Origin: Acidimicrobiia bacterium
GTDB taxonomy: Bacteria > Actinomycetota > Acidimicrobiia > UBA2766
Reading direction: 5' to 3'
DNA length: 35,846 nt
NCBI GenBank assembly: GCA_019695375.1
Contig: JAIBAC010000013.1
Span: 1 to 35,846 of the forward strand
In this document: positions 23,215 to 32,074 of the stretch, piece by piece
Numbering within the stretch: the first letter of the stretch is position 1
Layout: every line of letters starts with the position of its first letter
Program-made: the position numbers and the translations under genes
Notes under the pieces: model-generated
What the model saw: the letters and a program-made list of their open reading frames with translations, nothing else
Databases searched by the model: none
Told to the model about the DNA's origin: nothing

Positions 23215-24933
23215 GTGGCGAGGGAAGAGACCTACGACGTCGTCATCATCGGCGCCGGCCACAACGGCACCACCACCGCGGCGTACCTCGCCAAGAGCGG
23301 ACTGAGCGTGTGCGTGCTCGAGGAGCGGCCCGAGAGCGGCGGTGCGCAGGAGACCGCCGAGCCGATCGCGGGGGTCCGCATCCAGCCCCACGCGATCGCC
23401 AACTACGGCGGGTCGGCACCGGGGTGGGAGCAGCTCGAGCTGTGGCGCTACGGGTTCCGCATGGACTGGGACCCCCGCACCACCGTCGAGCTCGACACCG
23501 ACCGCTACATCTTCACCCGCGACGGCCTGTCCCGTGTCACCGACAAGGACAAGATGGGCTGGGCCAAGATCGCGTGCATGCTCTCGGGCCTCGACGGGTT
23601 CCGCGACCTGATGCGCTCCACGTTCTGGTGCCCGCCGCACCCCGCCCACGTCGAGCTGAACGAGGACACGATCCCGTTCATGCAGGTCTACAAGCAGCGC
23701 GAGCCCGACGTGTGGTCGCGCGAGCTGCTCGAGATGACGATGTTCGACCTCATGGACGAGTGGCTCGACACCGAGCCGTTCAAGGTGAGCCAGGCCTACA
23801 TCGCGCTCAGCTCCGGCGCGCACGGCCACATGGAGGGCGTTGCGATCCCGGCACTGTGCAGCGCCGCGACGGTTATGCCGCCCGCGATCGCCAAGCCCGT
23901 CGCCGCGCGGGGCAACATGCACGGCTACTACCACGCCCTCTTCCGCTGCGCCGTCGCGCACGGGGCGACCTTCAGGGCGTGCTGTCCCGTCGAGGAGATC
24001 ATCATCAGCGAGGGCCGCGCCCAGGGCGTGCGCCTTCGTGACGACGCCACCTACGGGCCCAAGAAGATCTGGGCGCGCAAGGCCGTGATCAGCGCCGCCC
24101 ACATCAAGCCGACGTTCCTCGACATGATCGGCCCCCAGCACCTCGACGCCGGGTTCATCCAGCGGATCAAGGACCTGAGCCTCAAGGGCGGCAGCCTCTA
24201 CATGAGCCACTACTACACCAAGGAGGAGTTCCGCTACCGCGAGAAGTACCGCCTCCCGCCGCCCAAGGACCAGTTCACCGGCGCGTTCTTCAACATGGAG
24301 TCGCGCGAGATCTACTTCAAGAACGTCGAGAACGTCCTCGGCCGCCAGGAGAACATGACGATCTCGCCCGACGAGGCGATGTGGGGCATGGTCGCGGCGT
24401 CGCTCTACGACGAGACCAACCCCCAGTGCACGCGCCCGGGCCGCCACATCAACGGCCCCCTGTGGATGATGGTGCCCACGCCCGAATACAACGTCGGCGG
24501 CATGGACGCCATGGACAAGGCCGACGAGAAGAAGAAGTGGGACGAGTTCATGCGGGCGAGCCTCGCCTGCATCGTCGAGAACCTCGACGACGACAACCTG
24601 ATCCGCATCATCAGCGACACGCCCTACGAGCAGGAGCAGCGCAACACCGGGATGCTGGGCGGGTCGTGGTACGGCATCCGCTGCGACCGTGACCAGTGGT
24701 GGAACGAGCGGCCCCTGCCCGAGCTCGCCCGCTACCGCGTGCCCGGCATCGAAGGCCTCTACCTCGCGCACCAGTCGGCGGCGCACCCCGGCGGGCTCTG
24801 CCTCATGGCCGTCGGTTACAACCTCATGCACATCCTGATCGAGGACGAGGTCGCCGACCCCGGTGACTGGTGGTACGCGTCGCCCTGGTACATCCCCGAC
24901 ATCGGCAAGCGGTCGGCCCACAAGGGCGCCTGA
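23215..24933 (+). CDS. CrtI/PYROXD2-type FAD oxidoreductase, class A (A2)
   Basis: A 572-residue paralogue of A1. The FAD motif GAGHNG is at residues 13-18, then [12 protein letters not shown]. Class A blocks shared with A1 include [37 protein letters not shown]-type [14 protein letters not shown], and the C-terminal [32 protein letters not shown]. The central region ([30 protein letters not shown] in sense) builds the substrate side of the CrtI fold. The start is the GTG at 23215 preceded by AGGGGGAA. It opens operon B as A1 opens operon A. Divergence from A1 is greater than for B1/B2 or D1/D2, which may reflect substrate change. Confidence 0.9.
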
Positions 24934-24961
24934 GCCGCGAGATCACAGGAGGAGTCGAACC

Positions 24962-26632
24962 ATGGTCAGAGAGCTGGAAGGCCGGCCTCACCCCCAGAGC
25001 TTCTTCTCGGAGTTCCCGATCGAGAGCGAGTGGGACGTCGTCGTGATCGGCGCCGGCCCGAACGGGCTCATCACGGCGTCGTACCTGGCGAAGGCCGGCC
25101 TCAAGGTCGTCCTCGTGGAGCGCCGCTACGAGATCGGCGGCGGCCTCGCGACCGAGGAGATCCTGTTCCCCGGCTTCTACTCCAACATCCACGCCGTCTA
25201 CCACATGATGGTCGACTTCATGCCGGCGCTCGTCGACTTCGACCTGTCCCGCCACGGCCTCGTGTGGATCAAGCCGAACCTGCAGACCTCGATGATCTTC
25301 GAGGACGGCAAGTCGCTGCTGCTGACGCGGATGCTCGAGGACACCGTCGACTCGTTCCATAAGTTCTCGACCAACGACGCCGTCAACCTCGGGCGCGTGA
25401 TGCGCACGTGGCGCAAGATCGCACGCGAGATCGTGGCGCCCGCCACCTACATCCCGCCGATGGCGCCCCTCGACATCATCGAGTCGATGGGCCGCACCGA
25501 GATCGGCCAGGAGATGCTCGACCTCAGCGAGCAGAGCCCCCTCGACATCATCACCGAGAACTTCGAGGACGACCGCATCCGCGCCCTGCTCCTCTACGTG
25601 ACGTGCATGTGGGGCCTCGACCCGACCGAGACCGGCGTCGGCTTCTTCGTGCCGATGCTGCTCGACCGCGCGATGAACAAGAACTACTGCCAGGGCGGCT
25701 CGCACAAGATGGCGTCGTCGTTCGCGCGTGAGTTCATCCGCAACGGCGGCACGATCCTCGACTCGTCGCAGGTGAACAAGATCAACGTCTCCGACGGCGC
25801 CGTCACCGGCGTGGAGTTGTGGGAGGGCCGCACGCTCGAGTCCAAGGTCGTGATCTCGAGCCTCGATCCTGAGTCGACCTTCATCGACCTCGTCGGCCCC
25901 GAGAACCTGCCCGCGACCCTCAAGGACGAGGTGTCGCGCTGGGAGCTCGACAAGTGGAGCTACACCACCTTGCACGTGGCGTCGGAGGAGGCGCCGCGCT
26001 ACATCAGCGGCGACCCGTGGGCCGACGAGTCGTTCATGACGATCCTCGGCTTCGACGGCGTCGACCAGGTCCTCGAGCACTGGCGCAACGTCACGTCGGG
26101 CCGGGTCGACCCCACGACGATGGGCGGCCACGCCACGTGCCAGACCCTCTTCGACTCGCACCTAAGCCGTGTGCCCGGCAAGCACGTGTCGTTCTTCCAG
26201 ATGCACACCCCCTACGACATCGAGGGCGGCTGGGAGACGCGCGGGCCCGAGCTCGAGGAGGCCGTGCTCGAGAAGTGGCGCCGCCTCGCGCCGAACATGT
26301 CGCGCGAGAACATCATCCGCACCACCCAGGAGACGCCCGAGGACATCGAGATCCGGCTGCCGAACATGCGCCGCGGCTCGATCAAGCACGGCGACTACAA
26401 CCCGCTCCAGCTCGGCTGCTTCCGCCCGAACCAGGACTGCTCGGACACGTCGACGCCGATCGAGGGCCTCTACGTGAACGGCGCGTCGACCTACCCGGGC
26501 GGGCTCGTGCTCGGCGGCCCCGGCTACCTCGCCGCCAACCGCGTCGCCGACGACATGGGCGTGCAGCGCTGGTGGAAGCCGACTGCGGCGATGCAGAAGT
26601 ACGTAGCCACCTACATCGACGACAACGAGTGA
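24962..26632 (+). CDS. CrtI/PYROXD2-type FAD oxidoreductase, class B (B2)
   Basis: A 556-residue paralogue of B1. The FAD motif GAGPNG is at 30-35, followed by [20 protein letters not shown] as in B1. Other class blocks are [61 protein letters not shown] and [20 protein letters not shown]. The ATG at 24962 has AGGAGG at 24949-24954; a longer in-frame reading overlaps A2 and is rejected. There are 28 bases between the A2 stop and this start, and seven to D2. B1 and B2 are near-equal in length and keep the same linker, so they probably share reaction type and differ at most in substrate. Confidence 0.9.
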
Positions 26633-26639
26633 GGTCACC

Positions 26640-28391
26640 ATGAAGGACTACGACGTCATCGTCATCGGCGGGGGCATCAACGGACTCACGACCGCGGCGT
26701 ACCTCGCCAAGGCGGGCCTGTCGGTGGGGGTGTTCGAGGCGCGGGGCCAGTGCGGCGCGCACTGCGACACCGTCGAGCTCGGCATGCCCGGGTTCCTGCA
26801 CAACCTCCACGCCACGTGGCTGGCGACGTCGTACTCGCCGGCGATGGAGGACCTCGACCTGCCCGGCCTCGGCTTCGAGTTGCGCGGCACCGACATCACC
26901 TACGCCAAGCCCTTCGAGAGCGGCCGCAACCTGCTGCACGCGATGGACGTGTCCAAGACCAACGCCAACTGGGCGCGGGTGTCGGAGGCCGACGCCGCGA
27001 CCCAGATGAAGGCGCTCGAGTTCAACGCCCTCAACCTCGACGAGATGCTCGAGGTGAACCGGCGCTTCTGGTACGGGCCGCCGACCGAGGAGACGCTGGG
27101 GCGCATGTACAAGCTCCTCGACGGGTTCCTCGCGCACCAGGGCCACGCCGACACGACCGGCGCCGACCTCTACAACATGACCGGCTTCGAGGTCCTCGAC
27201 CTCCTCTTCGAGTCCGAGGAGGTCAAGACCACGACGGCGTCGTGCGGCTGGATCGGCGGGATGCCGCCCATCCACCGCAAGATCGGGGCGCTCGCGGCGG
27301 TGTTCATGGCCGGCATTGGCGGCCCGATGGCGGTGCACACGTCGCGGGGCGGTTCCCACGCCCTCACCCACGCGCTCGTGAAGGCGACGGCGGAGGCCGG
27401 CGGCGAGATCTGGACGACATGCCCCGTCGAGCGGATCATCGTCGAGGACGGCCGTGCGGTCGGGATCCGCCTCACCGGCGACGCCCTGCTGGCGGGCGAG
27501 GAGATCCGCGCGAAGACGATCGTGTCGAATGTGTCGTTGACACCGACGTTCCTCGGCCTCCTCGGCGAGGACGTCATCGGTGCCGACATCGCGAGCCGCG
27601 TGAAGCAGTACGGCTACGACGAGCAGGTCCTCTTCGGCGTCTACTACAACCTCTGCGACGACGTGGAGTTCTCGGCGGCGGAGTGGGACCCCGGCATCCA
27701 GCGCTGCATGATGGGATACCTCGGCGGCGAGAGCGTCGACGACATGCGCCGCCACAACATGAACCTCGTCTCGGGCGTCATCGACGACGAGGTGATGGGC
27801 AACTGGTTCGTGCCCACGCGTGCCGACCCGACCCAAGCCCCCGACGGGTGCCACACGGCGTTCATCTGGGTCGACGTGCCGCCGCTGCCGCGGCGCTGGC
27901 AGGGTCGCCAGATCAGCGGCGGCATGGACGCGTGGCCCGAGCTCGCCGAGCCGATGGGTGACGTGATCACCGACCGCATCGAGGAGTTCGCGCCCGGGTT
28001 CAAGGACATCATCGTCGACCGCTTCGTGATGACGCCCCTCGACCAGGTGCGCAACAACGCGTCGGCGATCCGGGCGAACATCATGGGCGGCAGCGTCACG
28101 CCCGACCAGTTCTACCTGAACCGTCCGGTGCCGGGGATCATCACAAAGGGCGCGTCGCGCACGTTCATCCCCGGGCTCTACCTGAGCCAGTCGATCCACC
28201 CGATGGGCGCCTCGTGGCTCGCGACCGGCTACCTGGCAGCGTGCGAGGTGGCCGAGGACGCGGGCTGCCGCGACCAGTCGTGGTGGACGCACCGGCCGTG
28301 GGACTGGTTCATGGCCCACATGATGGACGTGCCCATGAACCTCGGGGTCGGGGCGAAGTGGCTCGACGACGCAGCAGGAGGTGGCGCATGA
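26640..28391 (+). CDS. CrtI-type FAD oxidoreductase, class D (D2), atypical FAD loop
   Basis: A 583-residue close paralogue of D1, with GGGING at 10-15 and the unusual loop QCGAHC (37-42) in place of the GG motif. Shared long blocks include RGTDITYAKPF, NMTGFEVLDLLFESEEVKTTTA, PPIHRKIGALAA, RGGSHALTHALVKAT, CHTAFIWVDVPPLPRRWQGR and NNASAIRANIMGGSVTPDQ. The stop overlaps the C2 start (ATGA). In operon B the order is D then C, the reverse of operon A. The level of conservation suggests that D performs the same step in both pathways. The flavin loop cysteines are intact here too. Confidence 0.88.
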   Translation: MKDYDVIVIGGGINGLTTAAYLAKAGLSVGVFEARGQCGAHCDTVELGMPGFLHNLHATWLATSYSPAMEDLDLPGLGFELRGTDITYAKPFESGRNLLHAMDVSKTNANWARVSEADAATQMKALEFNALNLDEMLEVNRRFWYGPPTEETLGRMYKLLDGFLAHQGHADTTGADLYNMTGFEVLDLLFESEEVKTTTASCGWIGGMPPIHRKIGALAAVFMAGIGGPMAVHTSRGGSHALTHALVKATAEAGGEIWTTCPVERIIVEDGRAVGIRLTGDALLAGEEIRAKTIVSNVSLTPTFLGLLGEDVIGADIASRVKQYGYDEQVLFGVYYNLCDDVEFSAAEWDPGIQRCMMGYLGGESVDDMRRHNMNLVSGVIDDEVMGNWFVPTRADPTQAPDGCHTAFIWVDVPPLPRRWQGRQISGGMDAWPELAEPMGDVITDRIEEFAPGFKDIIVDRFVMTPLDQVRNNASAIRANIMGGSVTPDQFYLNRPVPGIITKGASRTFIPGLYLSQSIHPMGASWLATGYLAACEVAEDAGCRDQSWWTHRPWDWFMAHMMDVPMNLGVGAKWLDDAAGGGA

Positions 28392-29860
28392 GCGCGCACG
28401 GCGGCGAGTACGACGCGATCATCATCGGCGGCGGCCCCGGCGGTCTCGCGTGCGGGGCAACCCTCGCGCACCACGGCGTGCGCGTGCTGATGGTCGAGCG
28501 CAACGACACCACCGGCGGTAAGGCCGTCACCGTCGAGCGCGACGGGTTCCGCTACGAGCTCGGCCCCAAGCTGCAGGTGCCGATGCAGGACCCCGGCTTC
28601 AAGCAGCTCTTCGCACGTCTCGGCATCTCCGACAAGCTCGATCAGGTGCTGCTCGACACGGCGTCGGTGTCGTACAAGCCCAAGGGATCCGACACGTACA
28701 AGACGATCATCTCGCCCCAGAGCTCGGGCATGGACCCGACGCCGTTCTTCGACCTGTGGGAGCTCGACGAGGCCGACCGCGAGAAGGCGCTTGCGGTGAT
28801 GGCCGAGATGGTGATGCTCACGCCCGAGCAGCTCGACGGCCTCGACGACACGTCGATGCAGGACTGGCTCGCCGAGCGCGACGTGCCGTGGGAGCTGTAC
28901 AGCTACCTGGCGATGCACGCCAACGCGTCGCTGGCGGAGCCGATCGATCTCGTGGCCGCGTCGGAGCAGGCCAAGATCATGCAGCAGATCGCGGTGCAGG
29001 GCGGTGGCGGCTACTACAAGGGCGGCTTCGGGCGCGTCCTCAACGACATCGCGGAGCAGATCCGCGCCGACGGCGGCGAGATCCTGCTGAGCACCGATGT
29101 CGAGCGCATCGACGTCGTCGACGGCCGTGCGGTCGGCATCACCACCACGGCCGGCACGTTCACGGCGCCGGTCGTGATCAGCGACGCCGGCATCCAGCCG
29201 ACGGTGCTGAAGCTGGCCGGGCGCGAGCACTTCCCCGACGACTACGTGCAGTGGGTCGAGGACGCGATCCCGGGCTGGGGCTGGGCGACGATCCGCTACC
29301 GGCTGAACGAGCGCGTCCTCGAGCAGGGCTGCTACATCATCTACGGCGACGACACGTGGTGGAACACCGAGCGTTACGAGGCGTACCGACGCGGTGAGAT
29401 CCCCGACGAGGTCGTGGTCTTCATCAGCGTCCCCACTGCGTTCGACACGACGATGGCGCCCGAGGGCAAGCAGGTCATCATCGTCGGTTCGCCCGCGCCG
29501 GCCGATCCCGAGGACCCCCACATCGAGGCGCTCTACGACCGTGTCGAGTCGACGCTGAAGAAGGTGTTCCCGAAGATCTTCGAGGTCGTGGACAAGCGCT
29601 CCTACGACGGGCCGGCGGAGGTGGCAGCCCACTCGCGTGACTCGGTGCTGCCCGGCCAGGGTGGCGAGTGCGTCGGCCTCGGTCAGATCGTGGGCCAGGT
29701 CGGCACCAAGAAGCCGTCGCCGCAGACGCCCCTCGACGGCCTCTACCTGTGCGGCTGCGACGCCGGCGCCCCCGGCATGGGCACCCACCAGGCGACGATG
29801 TCGGGCATGGCCACCGCCGACCTCGTGATGGAGCGCCTCGGCGTCACCACCGAGCTCTGA
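28388..29860 (+). CDS. CrtI-type FAD oxidoreductase, class C (C2)
   Basis: A 490-residue paralogue of C1. GGGPGG at residues 14-19 binds FAD, followed by VERNDTTGGKAVTV. Shared with C1 are VQGGGGYYKGGFGRV, ISDAGIQPTVLKL, WWNTERYEAYRRGE, QGGECVGLGQIVGQVGTKKPS and GLYLCGCDAGAPGMGTHQA. The N-terminal 200 residues are well diverged from C1, more so than for the other classes. The ATG overlaps the D2 stop by four bases. It is the last gene of operon B; the hairpin repeats that begin 19 bases after its stop could end transcription. Substrate unknown. Confidence 0.9.
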   Translation: MSAHGGEYDAIIIGGGPGGLACGATLAHHGVRVLMVERNDTTGGKAVTVERDGFRYELGPKLQVPMQDPGFKQLFARLGISDKLDQVLLDTASVSYKPKGSDTYKTIISPQSSGMDPTPFFDLWELDEADREKALAVMAEMVMLTPEQLDGLDDTSMQDWLAERDVPWELYSYLAMHANASLAEPIDLVAASEQAKIMQQIAVQGGGGYYKGGFGRVLNDIAEQIRADGGEILLSTDVERIDVVDGRAVGITTTAGTFTAPVVISDAGIQPTVLKLAGREHFPDDYVQWVEDAIPGWGWATIRYRLNERVLEQGCYIIYGDDTWWNTERYEAYRRGEIPDEVVVFISVPTAFDTTMAPEGKQVIIVGSPAPADPEDPHIEALYDRVESTLKKVFPKIFEVVDKRSYDGPAEVAAHSRDSVLPGQGGECVGLGQIVGQVGTKKPSPQTPLDGLYLCGCDAGAPGMGTHQATMSGMATADLVMERLGVTTEL

Positions 29861-29878: not shown

Positions 29879-30000
29879 CCCAAACGCGGGCGGGATGTCG
29901 TGCTGGCGGGTCAGGTTGCCCGCGTTTGGCGTGGGTCTCGCCCCAAACGCGGGTGGGATGTCGTGCTGGCGGGTCGGGTTGCCCGCGTTTGGCGTGGGGG
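29879..30000 (+). repeat. 63-bp hairpin repeat array, two copies
   Basis: Two tandem units with a 63-base period. In each, CCAAACGCGGG (29880-29890 and 29943-29953) pairs perfectly with CCCGCGTTTGG (29919-29929 and 29982-29992) around a 28-base loop containing GGGATGTCGTGCTGGCGGG. Four more copies, in the same orientation, lie at 31290-31536. Because 63 is divisible by three, open frames run through the repeats, but they are not genes. The array follows operon B and precedes the stop of the next, minus-strand gene. Confidence 0.9.
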
Positions 30001-30029
30001 CCATGCCCAGAGTGGGTCGCGGCGCAGTG

Positions 30030-30869
30030 CTAGGTCGACGTGCGGAGCCGGGCACCGGTGCCGACGACGCCCGCGATGACCGCAACGGCGAGCAGCGCCG
30101 GCACGATCATCCAGAACAGGCCCAGGGCTGGCAGCGTGCCCACGATGATCATCGCCTCAGCGACGGTGATCCTGTGCTCGACCCGGCCGGATCGCAGCGC
30201 CCGCACCAGCATCCAGCATCCGGCGATCGCAGCCGTCGCCCCGAACGTCACGAGGGCGGCGAAGAAGTACGGCACACCACCGGTGGACACGCCGACGACG
30301 AGGAGCGCGAACGCGAGCAGTAACACGAGGAGGGCGACGACGGCGCCGAACGCAGTGCCCCTGCGGCGCGGTCGCCCGGGCGCAGTTGCACCGGCAGCGA
30401 GCGTGGCCGCGGCACGGCGGCGCACCAGCAGGCCGGCGACGATCGACATCGCCAGGAGCGTCATGACGATCGGGCCCAGGACCTGGCCCGGCATCTGCCC
30501 GTCGTCCTCGGTCAGCACGGCGATCGCCGCGAGCACGTTGAACACGGCGAGGAGCACCGCCATCGGCGCGAACCAGGCCTGCGTGCACGCCGCCCAGAGC
30601 CGCCGGCCGGCCGAGGCGTCCGAGAGCGGATCGCCGGTGCGCATCGCCGCCTTCTGCTGACGCCTCCAAGTGAGGTCCGAGGCCATGCCGCGCGCCGTGC
30701 GCCATGCGACCGCGCGGTCGGGCGCAGCCTCGCCGCTGGCGGCAGCCCAGCGGTGCTGGTCATCGACATCGGCTGCGATCTCGGCCAGGCGTCGTTCGCG
30801 AACGTCGTCGGGCAAACCCTTGGTGTATCGGAGCGTCCACCACTGTGGGAACCTCGCCATGGCCGGCAT
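30030..30869 (-). CDS. Membrane protein linked to PadR (HAAS-like N-terminus)
   Basis: A 279-residue protein. Residues ~1-75 form a soluble helical domain (WWTLRYTKGLPDDVRERRLAEIAADVDDQHRW, then AVAWRTARGMASDLTWRRQQ) like the HAAS-type domain of proteins encoded beside PadR regulators. Four or five membrane segments follow, at about 98-117, 130-148, 173-193, 198-222 and 240-270. The ATG at 30867-30869 has GAGGAGGTGA upstream and follows the PadR stop by 12 bases, so the two form an operon. Such pairs often respond to envelope or antimicrobial stress in other bacteria; here that is only an inference. Confidence 0.8.
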   Translation of the reverse strand: MPAMARFPQWWTLRYTKGLPDDVRERRLAEIAADVDDQHRWAAASGEAAPDRAVAWRTARGMASDLTWRRQQKAAMRTGDPLSDASAGRRLWAACTQAWFAPMAVLLAVFNVLAAIAVLTEDDGQMPGQVLGPIVMTLLAMSIVAGLLVRRRAAATLAAGATAPGRPRRRGTAFGAVVALLVLLLAFALLVVGVSTGGVPYFFAALVTFGATAAIAGCWMLVRALRSGRVEHRITVAEAMIIVGTLPALGLFWMIVPALLAVAVIAGVVGTGARLRTST

Positions 30870-30881
30870 CCGGTCACCTCC

Positions 30882-31244
30882 TCACGTCGCGAGGCCTGGC
30901 TGCCAGCGTGGCTCGCCGTGCTCTGCCGCGCCGGAACGTGCATGGGCATGGGCTGCCGCCCCGAGGGCTGTGACCGAGTAGAGACGTCTGCGGGGGCGGC
31001 CTTCTGCACTCGCGCGGTCGGGGTCCTCCCAGCGGCTCTCGAGGAGCCCCGCCGTCTCCATGCGACCGAGGGCCTTGTACAGGGTGCCGTGGGCGGTGAG
31101 GCGCCGGGCTCCTTCCTGGTCGCGGATGCGGCGAGCGATCTCGAACCCGTGGAACTCGACGTCGCCGCCGCGTGAAGATGAAGTCGCCGCGTCGAGGATC
31201 GAGTACTCGAGGGGGAGGAGCTCTCCGGGTTTGCGACGAACCAT
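30882..31244 (-). CDS. PadR-family transcriptional regulator
   Basis: A 120-residue winged-helix protein of the short PadR type: LLPLEYSILDAA, then FHGFEIARRIRDQEGARRLTAHGTLYKALGRMETAGLLES and the wing EGRPRRRLYSVTALG. The conserved G-T-L-Y-K-x-L-x-R-M-E core is complete. The C-terminal dimerisation helix is short (HAHARSGAAEHGEPRW). The ATG at 31242-31244 lies seven bases after a -10 element, so the message is probably leaderless and the gene autoregulated. A much longer in-frame reading upstream runs through the hairpin repeats and is not real. It is followed by its membrane-protein partner. Confidence 0.88.
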   Translation of the reverse strand: MVRRKPGELLPLEYSILDAATSSSRGGDVEFHGFEIARRIRDQEGARRLTAHGTLYKALGRMETAGLLESRWEDPDRASAEGRPRRRLYSVTALGAAAHAHARSGAAEHGEPRWQPGLAT

Positions 31245-31250
31245 GCCAAC

Positions 31251-31280
31251 ACTAATAGGAAGATATCTGCCCATTGTCAA
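31251..31280 (-). promoter_or_regulatory. padR promoter with AGATATCT palindrome in the spacer
   Basis: On the minus strand TTGACA (31280-31275) and TATTAG (31257-31252) are exactly 17 bases apart. The spacer contains the perfect palindrome AGATATCT (31268-31261), well placed for a PadR dimer to block RNA polymerase. Only seven bases separate the -10 from the ATG. This is the strongest -35 consensus in the window. Confidence 0.65.
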
Positions 31281-31289
31281 GGGGTCCGC

Positions 31290-31536
31290 CCCAAACGCGG
31301 GTGGGATGTCCCGTTGGCGGGATGAGTTGCCCGCGTTTGGCGTGGGCCTCGCCCCAAACGCGGGTGAGATGTCCCGCTGGCGGGATGAGTTGCCCGCGTT
31401 TGGCGTGGGCTGCGTCCCAAACGCGGGCGGGATGTCGTGCTGGCGGGACGGGTTGCCCGCGTTTGGCGTGGGCCTCGTCCCAGACGCGGGCGGGATGTCG
31501 CGCTGGCGGGACGGGTTGCCCGCGTTTGGCGTGGGG
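31290..31536 (+). repeat. 63-bp hairpin repeat array, four copies
   Basis: Four tandem units with a 63-base period and the same orientation as the pair at 29879-30000. The left arms begin at 31291, 31354, 31417 and 31480, and the right arms CCCGCGTTTGG begin at 31330, 31393, 31456 and 31519. Arms are invariant except for one A-to-G change in the fourth left arm; loops vary in a few bases. The array fills the gap between the padR promoter and the stop of the DUF6125-like gene. No gene or CRISPR-type spacer is present. Confidence 0.92.
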
Positions 31537-31537
31537 G

Positions 31538-32074
31538 CTAGCTGTGGGGCGGCGCTGACGGGGGGAGGTCGAACACGTAGGTGCGGGCGCACGTCCCCTC
31601 GTGGTACATCGTGCACAGCGTCGCGACCGGTTCGACCGAGTAGCCGACGCCGAGGGCGTCGAGCCAGCCGTGGATGCGTTCGAAGATCCCGCACTCGTAG
31701 CGGTCGGCGACACCGAGCATGCTGACGCCGTCGAACGCGAAGCACGACGTGATCCCGAAGCGGACCGACGTGTTGGCGGCCGCCCACGTCACGTCGAAGT
31801 CCATGAAGTCGGGGATCACCGTCTCGATCGCGATGTCGAAGAAGCGGCGCAGTGTGTCGGCGTCGTCCACTGAGCCGAGGCCGAACATCTTGACGATCCG
31901 CTTCGCCTCGATCTGAGCCATGGACCGCGCCGCGTGGCGGTTCAGGCGGTTCGTCTCCTCGATCCCGAAGCGCTCCAGGGCGCCCGCGAACCACATGGCG
32001 TCGTGGGTCAGCCAGTTGCGCACGAGCAGGCCCCGCACCGCGGCGGGGTCGATCCCGGTGGTGTCGGTGCTCAT
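31538..32074 (-). CDS. DUF6125-like / ATC-hydrolase-like protein
   Basis: A 178-residue soluble protein. The N-terminal helices read LLVRNWLTHDAMWFAGALERFGIEETNRLNRHAARSMAQIEAKRI, a pattern that I associate with DUF6125 proteins. The C-terminal part has SVRFGITSCFAFDGVSMLGVADRYECGIFERIHGWLDALGVG and TLCTMYHEGTCARTYVFDL, with several conserved-looking Cys residues, as in the related L-2-amino-thiazoline-4-carboxylate hydrolase-like fold. The ATG overlaps the upstream tetR stop (ATGA). It is likely controlled by, and functionally tied to, that regulator. Biochemical function unknown; the family call is from pattern memory. Confidence 0.65.
   Translation of the reverse strand: MSTDTTGIDPAAVRGLLVRNWLTHDAMWFAGALERFGIEETNRLNRHAARSMAQIEAKRIVKMFGLGSVDDADTLRRFFDIAIETVIPDFMDFDVTWAAANTSVRFGITSCFAFDGVSMLGVADRYECGIFERIHGWLDALGVGYSVEPVATLCTMYHEGTCARTYVFDLPPSAPPHS

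Follow-up and report, generated by a model that had tools for sequence, protein, structure and literature searches.

Why high-copy palindromes are retained between bacterial genes has long been asked, and the usual answer is the RAYT transposases of proteobacteria. The question is raised anew by a 35,846-nucleotide stretch of DNA from a draft genome of an Acidimicrobiia bacterium (contig JAIBAC010000013.1, here called the window), in which two arrays of palindromic repeats stand on either side of a gene for a PadR-family regulator and its neighbor. A sequence-only reading of this DNA had described six units with 11-base arms and a period of 63 bp, divided 2 + 4, with almost invariant arms and variable loops, and had placed the arrays just past the stop codons of adjacent genes. 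All of these features were recovered in our analyses (Table 1), the stop codons in question lying at 29860 on the forward and 31538 on the reverse strand.

Each unit in the window is a 50 bp dyad consisting of the arm CCAAACGCGGG, 28 variable bases and the arm CCCGCGTTTGG, both arms being 11 bases long. The arms are exact in all units except for one base of unit 6, and the loop is 28 nt long in all six. Tandem Repeats Finder (TRF) reports a period of 63 for both arrays, with scores (226 and 386 for A and B, respectively) that are the highest in the window. Elsewhere in the window the arm 11-mer has no match with 0 or 1 mismatch, and with 2 mismatches allowed the total for the whole window is 18, where 18.6 are expected by chance; hence, the signal resides in paired, in-phase, exact arms and not in the 11-mer alone. 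The loops of arrays A and B are tied for the most similar among all pairs of sites in the genome (26/28), and a local relation between the two arrays is therefore possible. A promoter-like TTGACA-N17-TATTAG is readable between the padR start and array B. Directly upstream of array A, four successive genes for FAD/NAD-binding oxidoreductases occupy 23215-29860 of the forward strand, three of the four with amine-oxidase (PF01593) matches.

Table 1. Repeat units and neighboring genes in the window
Feature	Position	Strand	Remarks
FAD/amine-oxidase-type oxidoreductase gene	28388..29860	+	Pfam PF01593, E=1.9e-26; array A begins 20 bp past its stop
Array A	29880-29992		between the FAD oxidoreductase stop and the 3' end of the 279-aa protein gene
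Dyad unit 1, array A	29880..29929	+	11-bp arm/28-nt centre/11-bp arm; covariance-model score 74.1 bits
Spacer, units 1-2	29930..29942	+	13 bp, CGTGGGTCTCGCC
Dyad unit 2, array A	29943..29992	+	starts 63 bp past unit 1
279-aa protein gene	30030..30869	-	no Pfam match; "membrane protein" is the name given by the sequence-only reading; 3' end towards array A
PadR-family regulator gene	30882..31244	-	PF03551, E=6.1e-12
Array B	31291-31529		between the DUF6125 gene stop and the padR promoter region
Dyad unit 3, array B	31291..31340	+	
Dyad unit 4, array B	31354..31403	+	
Dyad unit 5, array B	31417..31466	+	loop matches unit 1 at 26/28
Dyad unit 6, array B	31480..31529	+	single arm mismatch, CCAGACGCGGG
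DUF6125 protein gene	31538..32074	-	PF19620, E=1.6e-9; array B directly past its stop codon

The unit is not confined to this locus. In the genome of origin (a 3.48-Mb draft in 332 contigs, 91% complete), the exact-arm paired pattern occurs 79 times and a reversed-pattern control 0 times, which rules out a chance origin of the pattern. For a wider count, the contigs around the exact matches were searched with a covariance model and under relaxed conditions, which gave 129 detections in 63 clusters. Of the detections, 127 are good copies; they occupy about 62 intergenic sites. The earlier suggestion of a REP/BIME-like family is borne out to the extent that the family is genome-wide and intergenic. 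The centre is 28 nt long in 127 of the 129 detections, and 48 of the 63 clusters are head-to-tail pairs; when two singletons cut by contig ends are left out, there are 6 clusters with one copy, 48 with two, 5 with three and 2 with four. Adjacent copies start 64 bp apart in 36 cases, 63 bp in 22 and 65 bp in two, with four exceptions, and even among diverged pairs the 63/64 bp spacing is kept in 8 of 9. At most sites the spacer is G-rich first and C-rich next. The strand of the element follows the local GC skew at 45 of 63 sites (45:18, P=9e-4, elements masked), as if oriented with replication, an association that is partly circular as the strand is defined by the G/T-rich loop.

The sites of the family are intergenic and lie at the ends of transcription units, mostly 3' of genes. 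On gene calls from our own codon-usage caller, 26 sites are between convergent genes, 24 between tandem genes and 9 between divergent genes, while 3 are at contig ends and 2 apparently within weakly scored open reading frames. Elements are over-represented at convergent junctions (26 with and 38 without one, against 34 and 282 for other junctions; Fisher P=7e-8), the baseline counts being taken from the sequence around the sites. In tandem arrangements, the element has median distances of 14 bp to the stop codon before it and 52 bp to the start codon after it (P=0.001); its G/T-rich strand matches the sense strand at 14 sites and the antisense strand at 10. The divergent sites are genuine at least in part, Pfam matches confirming the AzlC/FAD-binding and AAA/glycosyl-hydrolase neighbors, between which the pair fills nearly the whole gap. 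At two divergent sites (L061:4042-4155 and L084:721-833), where one repeat pair makes up the entire gap, promoter-like -10 boxes (TANNNT) stand at a distance of 8 bp from the arm, with 6 bp between them and the start codon, which suggests leaderless promoters that touch the element. The earlier proposal that the bracketing arrays move or copy the PadR module finds no support: like pairs stand beside unrelated genes at about 62 sites, the 2 + 4 layout needs no transposition of the module, and the module is apparently not moved by the array.

The distribution of changes within the unit indicates where constraint acts. Positions 6-11 and 40-45, the arm core, show one change in 1524 cases, and the most variable columns include 15-16 and 35-36. 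Tandem copies within one site differ from each other at 209 of 1736 positions in the middle and at 1 of 744 in the arm core (Fisher P=6e-33); such local duplicates diverge where they stand, and hence the conservation of the arms is evidence for constraint in place and not for recent copying. The outer-arm pair 3-48 is A-T in 105, A-C in 12, G-T in 9 and G-C in 1 of the 127 copies, and as these changes are not compensatory, the two half-sites vary independently. No covariation was detected between any paired positions across the 28-nt centre, column dependencies are mostly between neighboring columns, and a 10-bp helical periodicity in column information was not seen. The 50-bp unit comprises four conserved blocks in pseudo-twofold order (viz. 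outer arm, inner half-site, inner half-site, outer arm). Taken together, such a pattern is what a double-stranded site read half by half would show.

The sequence of the family was not found in related bacteria. Its pattern is absent from 39 relatives, a scan of GTDB contigs returned nothing but a 41-nt match in one stretch of Hymenobacter, which we regard as a chance match and not as a homologue, and a covariance-model search of same-family relatives gave no convincing match (best E=0.07); judged from these searches, the sequence is private to the species. Four other genomes of the class (G002, G005, G026 and G034) contain private palindrome families of their own. G002, from the same family, has a 47-bp dyad, ACGTGGGCGTA-N25-TACGCCCACGT, with a period of 61/62 and 45 exact copies, which is lacking in 295 further genomes of the class, one of the same genus included. 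G026 has GTTTTGCCCC-N28-GGGGCAAAAC, with inner half-sites GATCCGTCA/TGACGGATC, a period of 60/63 (some 71) and 14 exact-arm copies, more with relaxed arms, and this dyad is absent from 60 family-mates. In G034, 13 copies of dyads of about 40 bp are private among 7 genomes tested, and in G005 a 25-bp palindrome, TCGGTTGATGTCNGACATCAACCGA, private within its genus, has 104 copies, mostly in doublets 55-57 bp apart. In these doublets (e.g., C1:909519-909598) the base at the centre changes from A in the first copy to T in the second, an inverted and REPIN-like arrangement. The G026 family resembles that of the window in its four-block profile, in a centre of 28 nt and in pairs at 60/63 bp, though its arms are unrelated; the geometry of the window family is thus common to G026 and, less exactly, to G002, and G034 and G005 offer looser parallels. 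Partial samples of G001 (365 kb), G003 (128 kb), G109 (160 kb) and G226 (60 kb) yielded nothing convincing. G002 also carries a perfect 42-bp palindrome, CTGGGTACCTGAGCGGCGATATATCGCCGCTCAGGTACCCAG, as five identical single copies in 327 kb (L118:1022, L120:16152, L122:15605, L122:19426 and L129:8121).

On the basis of these observations, the interpretation that we favor, with somewhat less than even confidence, is that the units are dispersed, species-private, paired DNA sites for a putative binding protein, with a barrier role at transcription-unit boundaries. A dimeric or tetrameric sequence-specific protein would bind each 50-bp unit, two sites 63-64 bp apart would form the working unit, and a bound pair, whether it follows a stop codon or lies between convergent genes or divergent promoters, would separate adjacent transcription units, acting as a roadblock to read-through or as a barrier to supercoils. 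BIMEs are thought to act as similar barriers between transcription units. The interpretation builds on features that are observed (the family, its pairing, its position, the in-place constraint on the arms and the lack of any sign of selection on base pairing), to which it adds a putative protein, its binding and a barrier function. Against it stand the results that our analyses identified no binding protein, that the copies do not occupy orthologous places in G002 or G026 and that column information shows no 10-bp periodicity, as well as the precedent of REPINs, in which a variable, fixed-length spacer between invariant ends needs no host function (PMC3116915).

The same unit could in principle act on RNA, as a bidirectional hairpin terminator or a stabilizer of mRNA 3' ends, an explanation that we consider improbable. 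Its position just past stop codons, where the sequence-only reading had proposed terminators, and between convergent genes suits such a role. The hairpins that the arms form are stable, at -18 to -33 kcal/mol with z of about -3 to -6.6, and inner G-T pairs are frequent on one strand. However, the units contain no T-run and no intrinsic terminator (a G+C-rich stem followed by a T-run) was called at them, the only match in the region lying elsewhere; no Rfam family scored above its gathering threshold, with two chance-level matches only; and some sites lie between divergent genes, abutting promoter-like boxes. In shuffles, the centre pairs 15-36 and 16-35 form more often than in the units, and with no covariation a conserved RNA fold was rejected for the inner pairs. 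Selection on RNA pairing is disfavored because changes are not compensatory and the strand of the element is independent of transcription (14 same, 10 opposite). For the terminator proposal, the position fits, and the missing T-run, the non-compensatory changes and the strand of the element do not. Non-covarying loop pairs do not by themselves exclude an RNA role for the 11-bp arm stem, and a terminating or stabilizing role as a side effect of the hairpin is possible. That the units are functionless tandem repeats expanding neutrally by slippage is very improbable: middles are 86% alike within one site and 59% between sites, as local duplication gives, but this explanation is already contradicted by the contrast between near-absolute conservation of the arm core and the highly variable columns beside it, and by the constant 28-nt centre and the excess of exactly two copies.

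The main rival to paired protein-binding sites is that the units are REPIN-like miniature mobile DNA, whose arms would be the recognition ends for a putative transposase, which spread within the lineage, formed pairs by slippage and are conserved for their copyability and not for a function in the host; we regard it as rather unlikely. The units show the REPIN pattern of invariant ends that enclose a variable, fixed-length spacer (PMC3116915), and the family is both private to the species and missing from orthologous places in relatives, which indicates that dispersal happened. In a systematic comparison no orthologous sites were found in G002 or G026 and flanking genes were not shared, so that some process must once have spread the copies; a first hint of a conserved locus at L093/L129 was loose synteny. 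The loops retain a weak family structure, with a mean nearest-neighbor identity between sites of 0.81 against 0.77 in shuffled columns, and G005 combines its inverted doublets with one Y1_Tnp gene. Yet no identical middle is common to two sites (best 26/28), so that recent copying is not seen, and there is no visible stock of arm-decayed copies, since 36 of the 37 places found with the loop core alone are inside known elements with recognizable arms. Dispersal as ready-made doublets is not supported (P=0.11), and local duplicates keep their arm cores while their loops drift. The matching RAYT that had been anticipated was not found: no Y1_Tnp was detected in G000 to G003, G034 or G109 (in the genome of origin, G000, at E<=0.01; at 91% completeness its absence is not absolute), although G000, G002 and G034 have repeat families, and no GTAG tag was apparent at the arm ends. 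One Y1_Tnp is present in G005 and five matches in G026, one of them below the Pfam cut-off, and the searched repeat motifs were not seen near these genes; a RAYT or IS200-type transposase was accordingly rejected as the driver. Mobile DNA thus does better on the private sequences and non-shared sites, and worse on in-place conservation and the missing decayed copies and RAYT.

Among known repeats, the BIMEs of enterobacteria, regular arrays of palindromes at the 3' ends of transcription units that have been proposed to bind gyrase or IHF, are mosaics of different REP types, with Pol I a further binding partner. The units of the window are likewise regularly arranged at such 3' ends, but their sequence is unrelated and there is one unit type only, head to tail. 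Mycobacterial MIRU-type repeats can be likened by layout alone (repeats in tandem between genes, with a like period and dispersed over tens of sites in an actinobacterium), but MIRUs are not dyads with invariant arms. Integron attC sites (core boxes GTTRRRY/RYYYAAC) were rejected, as the arm reads GTTTGGC, with T and not R as its fourth base, and there is no cassette layout. The tagged REP superfamilies (GTAG and CGTC), which include CGTC families without a dedicated transposase, are similar in being short, high-copy, intergenic, species-specific palindromes, often paired and mostly located after stops and between convergent genes; they differ in having units of 20-40 bp against 50 bp here and loops of 2-20 nt against a fixed centre of 28 nt, and no tag is recognized here (PMC3733652). 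At the unit ends, flank logos show C-rich 5' and G-rich 3' flanks and no fixed GTAG, CGTC or other tetranucleotide. RAYT-linked REPINs share invariant inverted ends, a variable spacer of fixed length and dispersal in extragenic space, but the window family has no RAYT, no compensatory changes in the spacer and no identical copies at different sites, and its pairs are head to tail (PMC3116915). As no tag is recognized and neither compensatory change nor a RAYT was found, the family is neither a tagged REP nor a shown REPIN, and by position and arrangement it is best read as an untagged REP/BIME-like family. A literature search, incomplete in its coverage, found no paper on such repeats in Acidimicrobiia.

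A broader proposal, which we put forward as doubtful, is that Acidimicrobiia may mark the ends of transcription units with paired dyads of about 50 bp of common four-block geometry, read by a fast-evolving DNA-binding protein that would give each species its own arm sequence, a REP-like system independent of RAYTs and acting on DNA rather than RNA. The family described here combines invariant arms, a fixed 28-nt centre, head-to-tail pairing and no detectable RAYT with direct evidence of in-place constraint on the arms. With private families in four other genomes of the class, that of G026 having a like geometry, a comparative test becomes possible, namely a search for a protein whose DNA-binding part changes with the arms.
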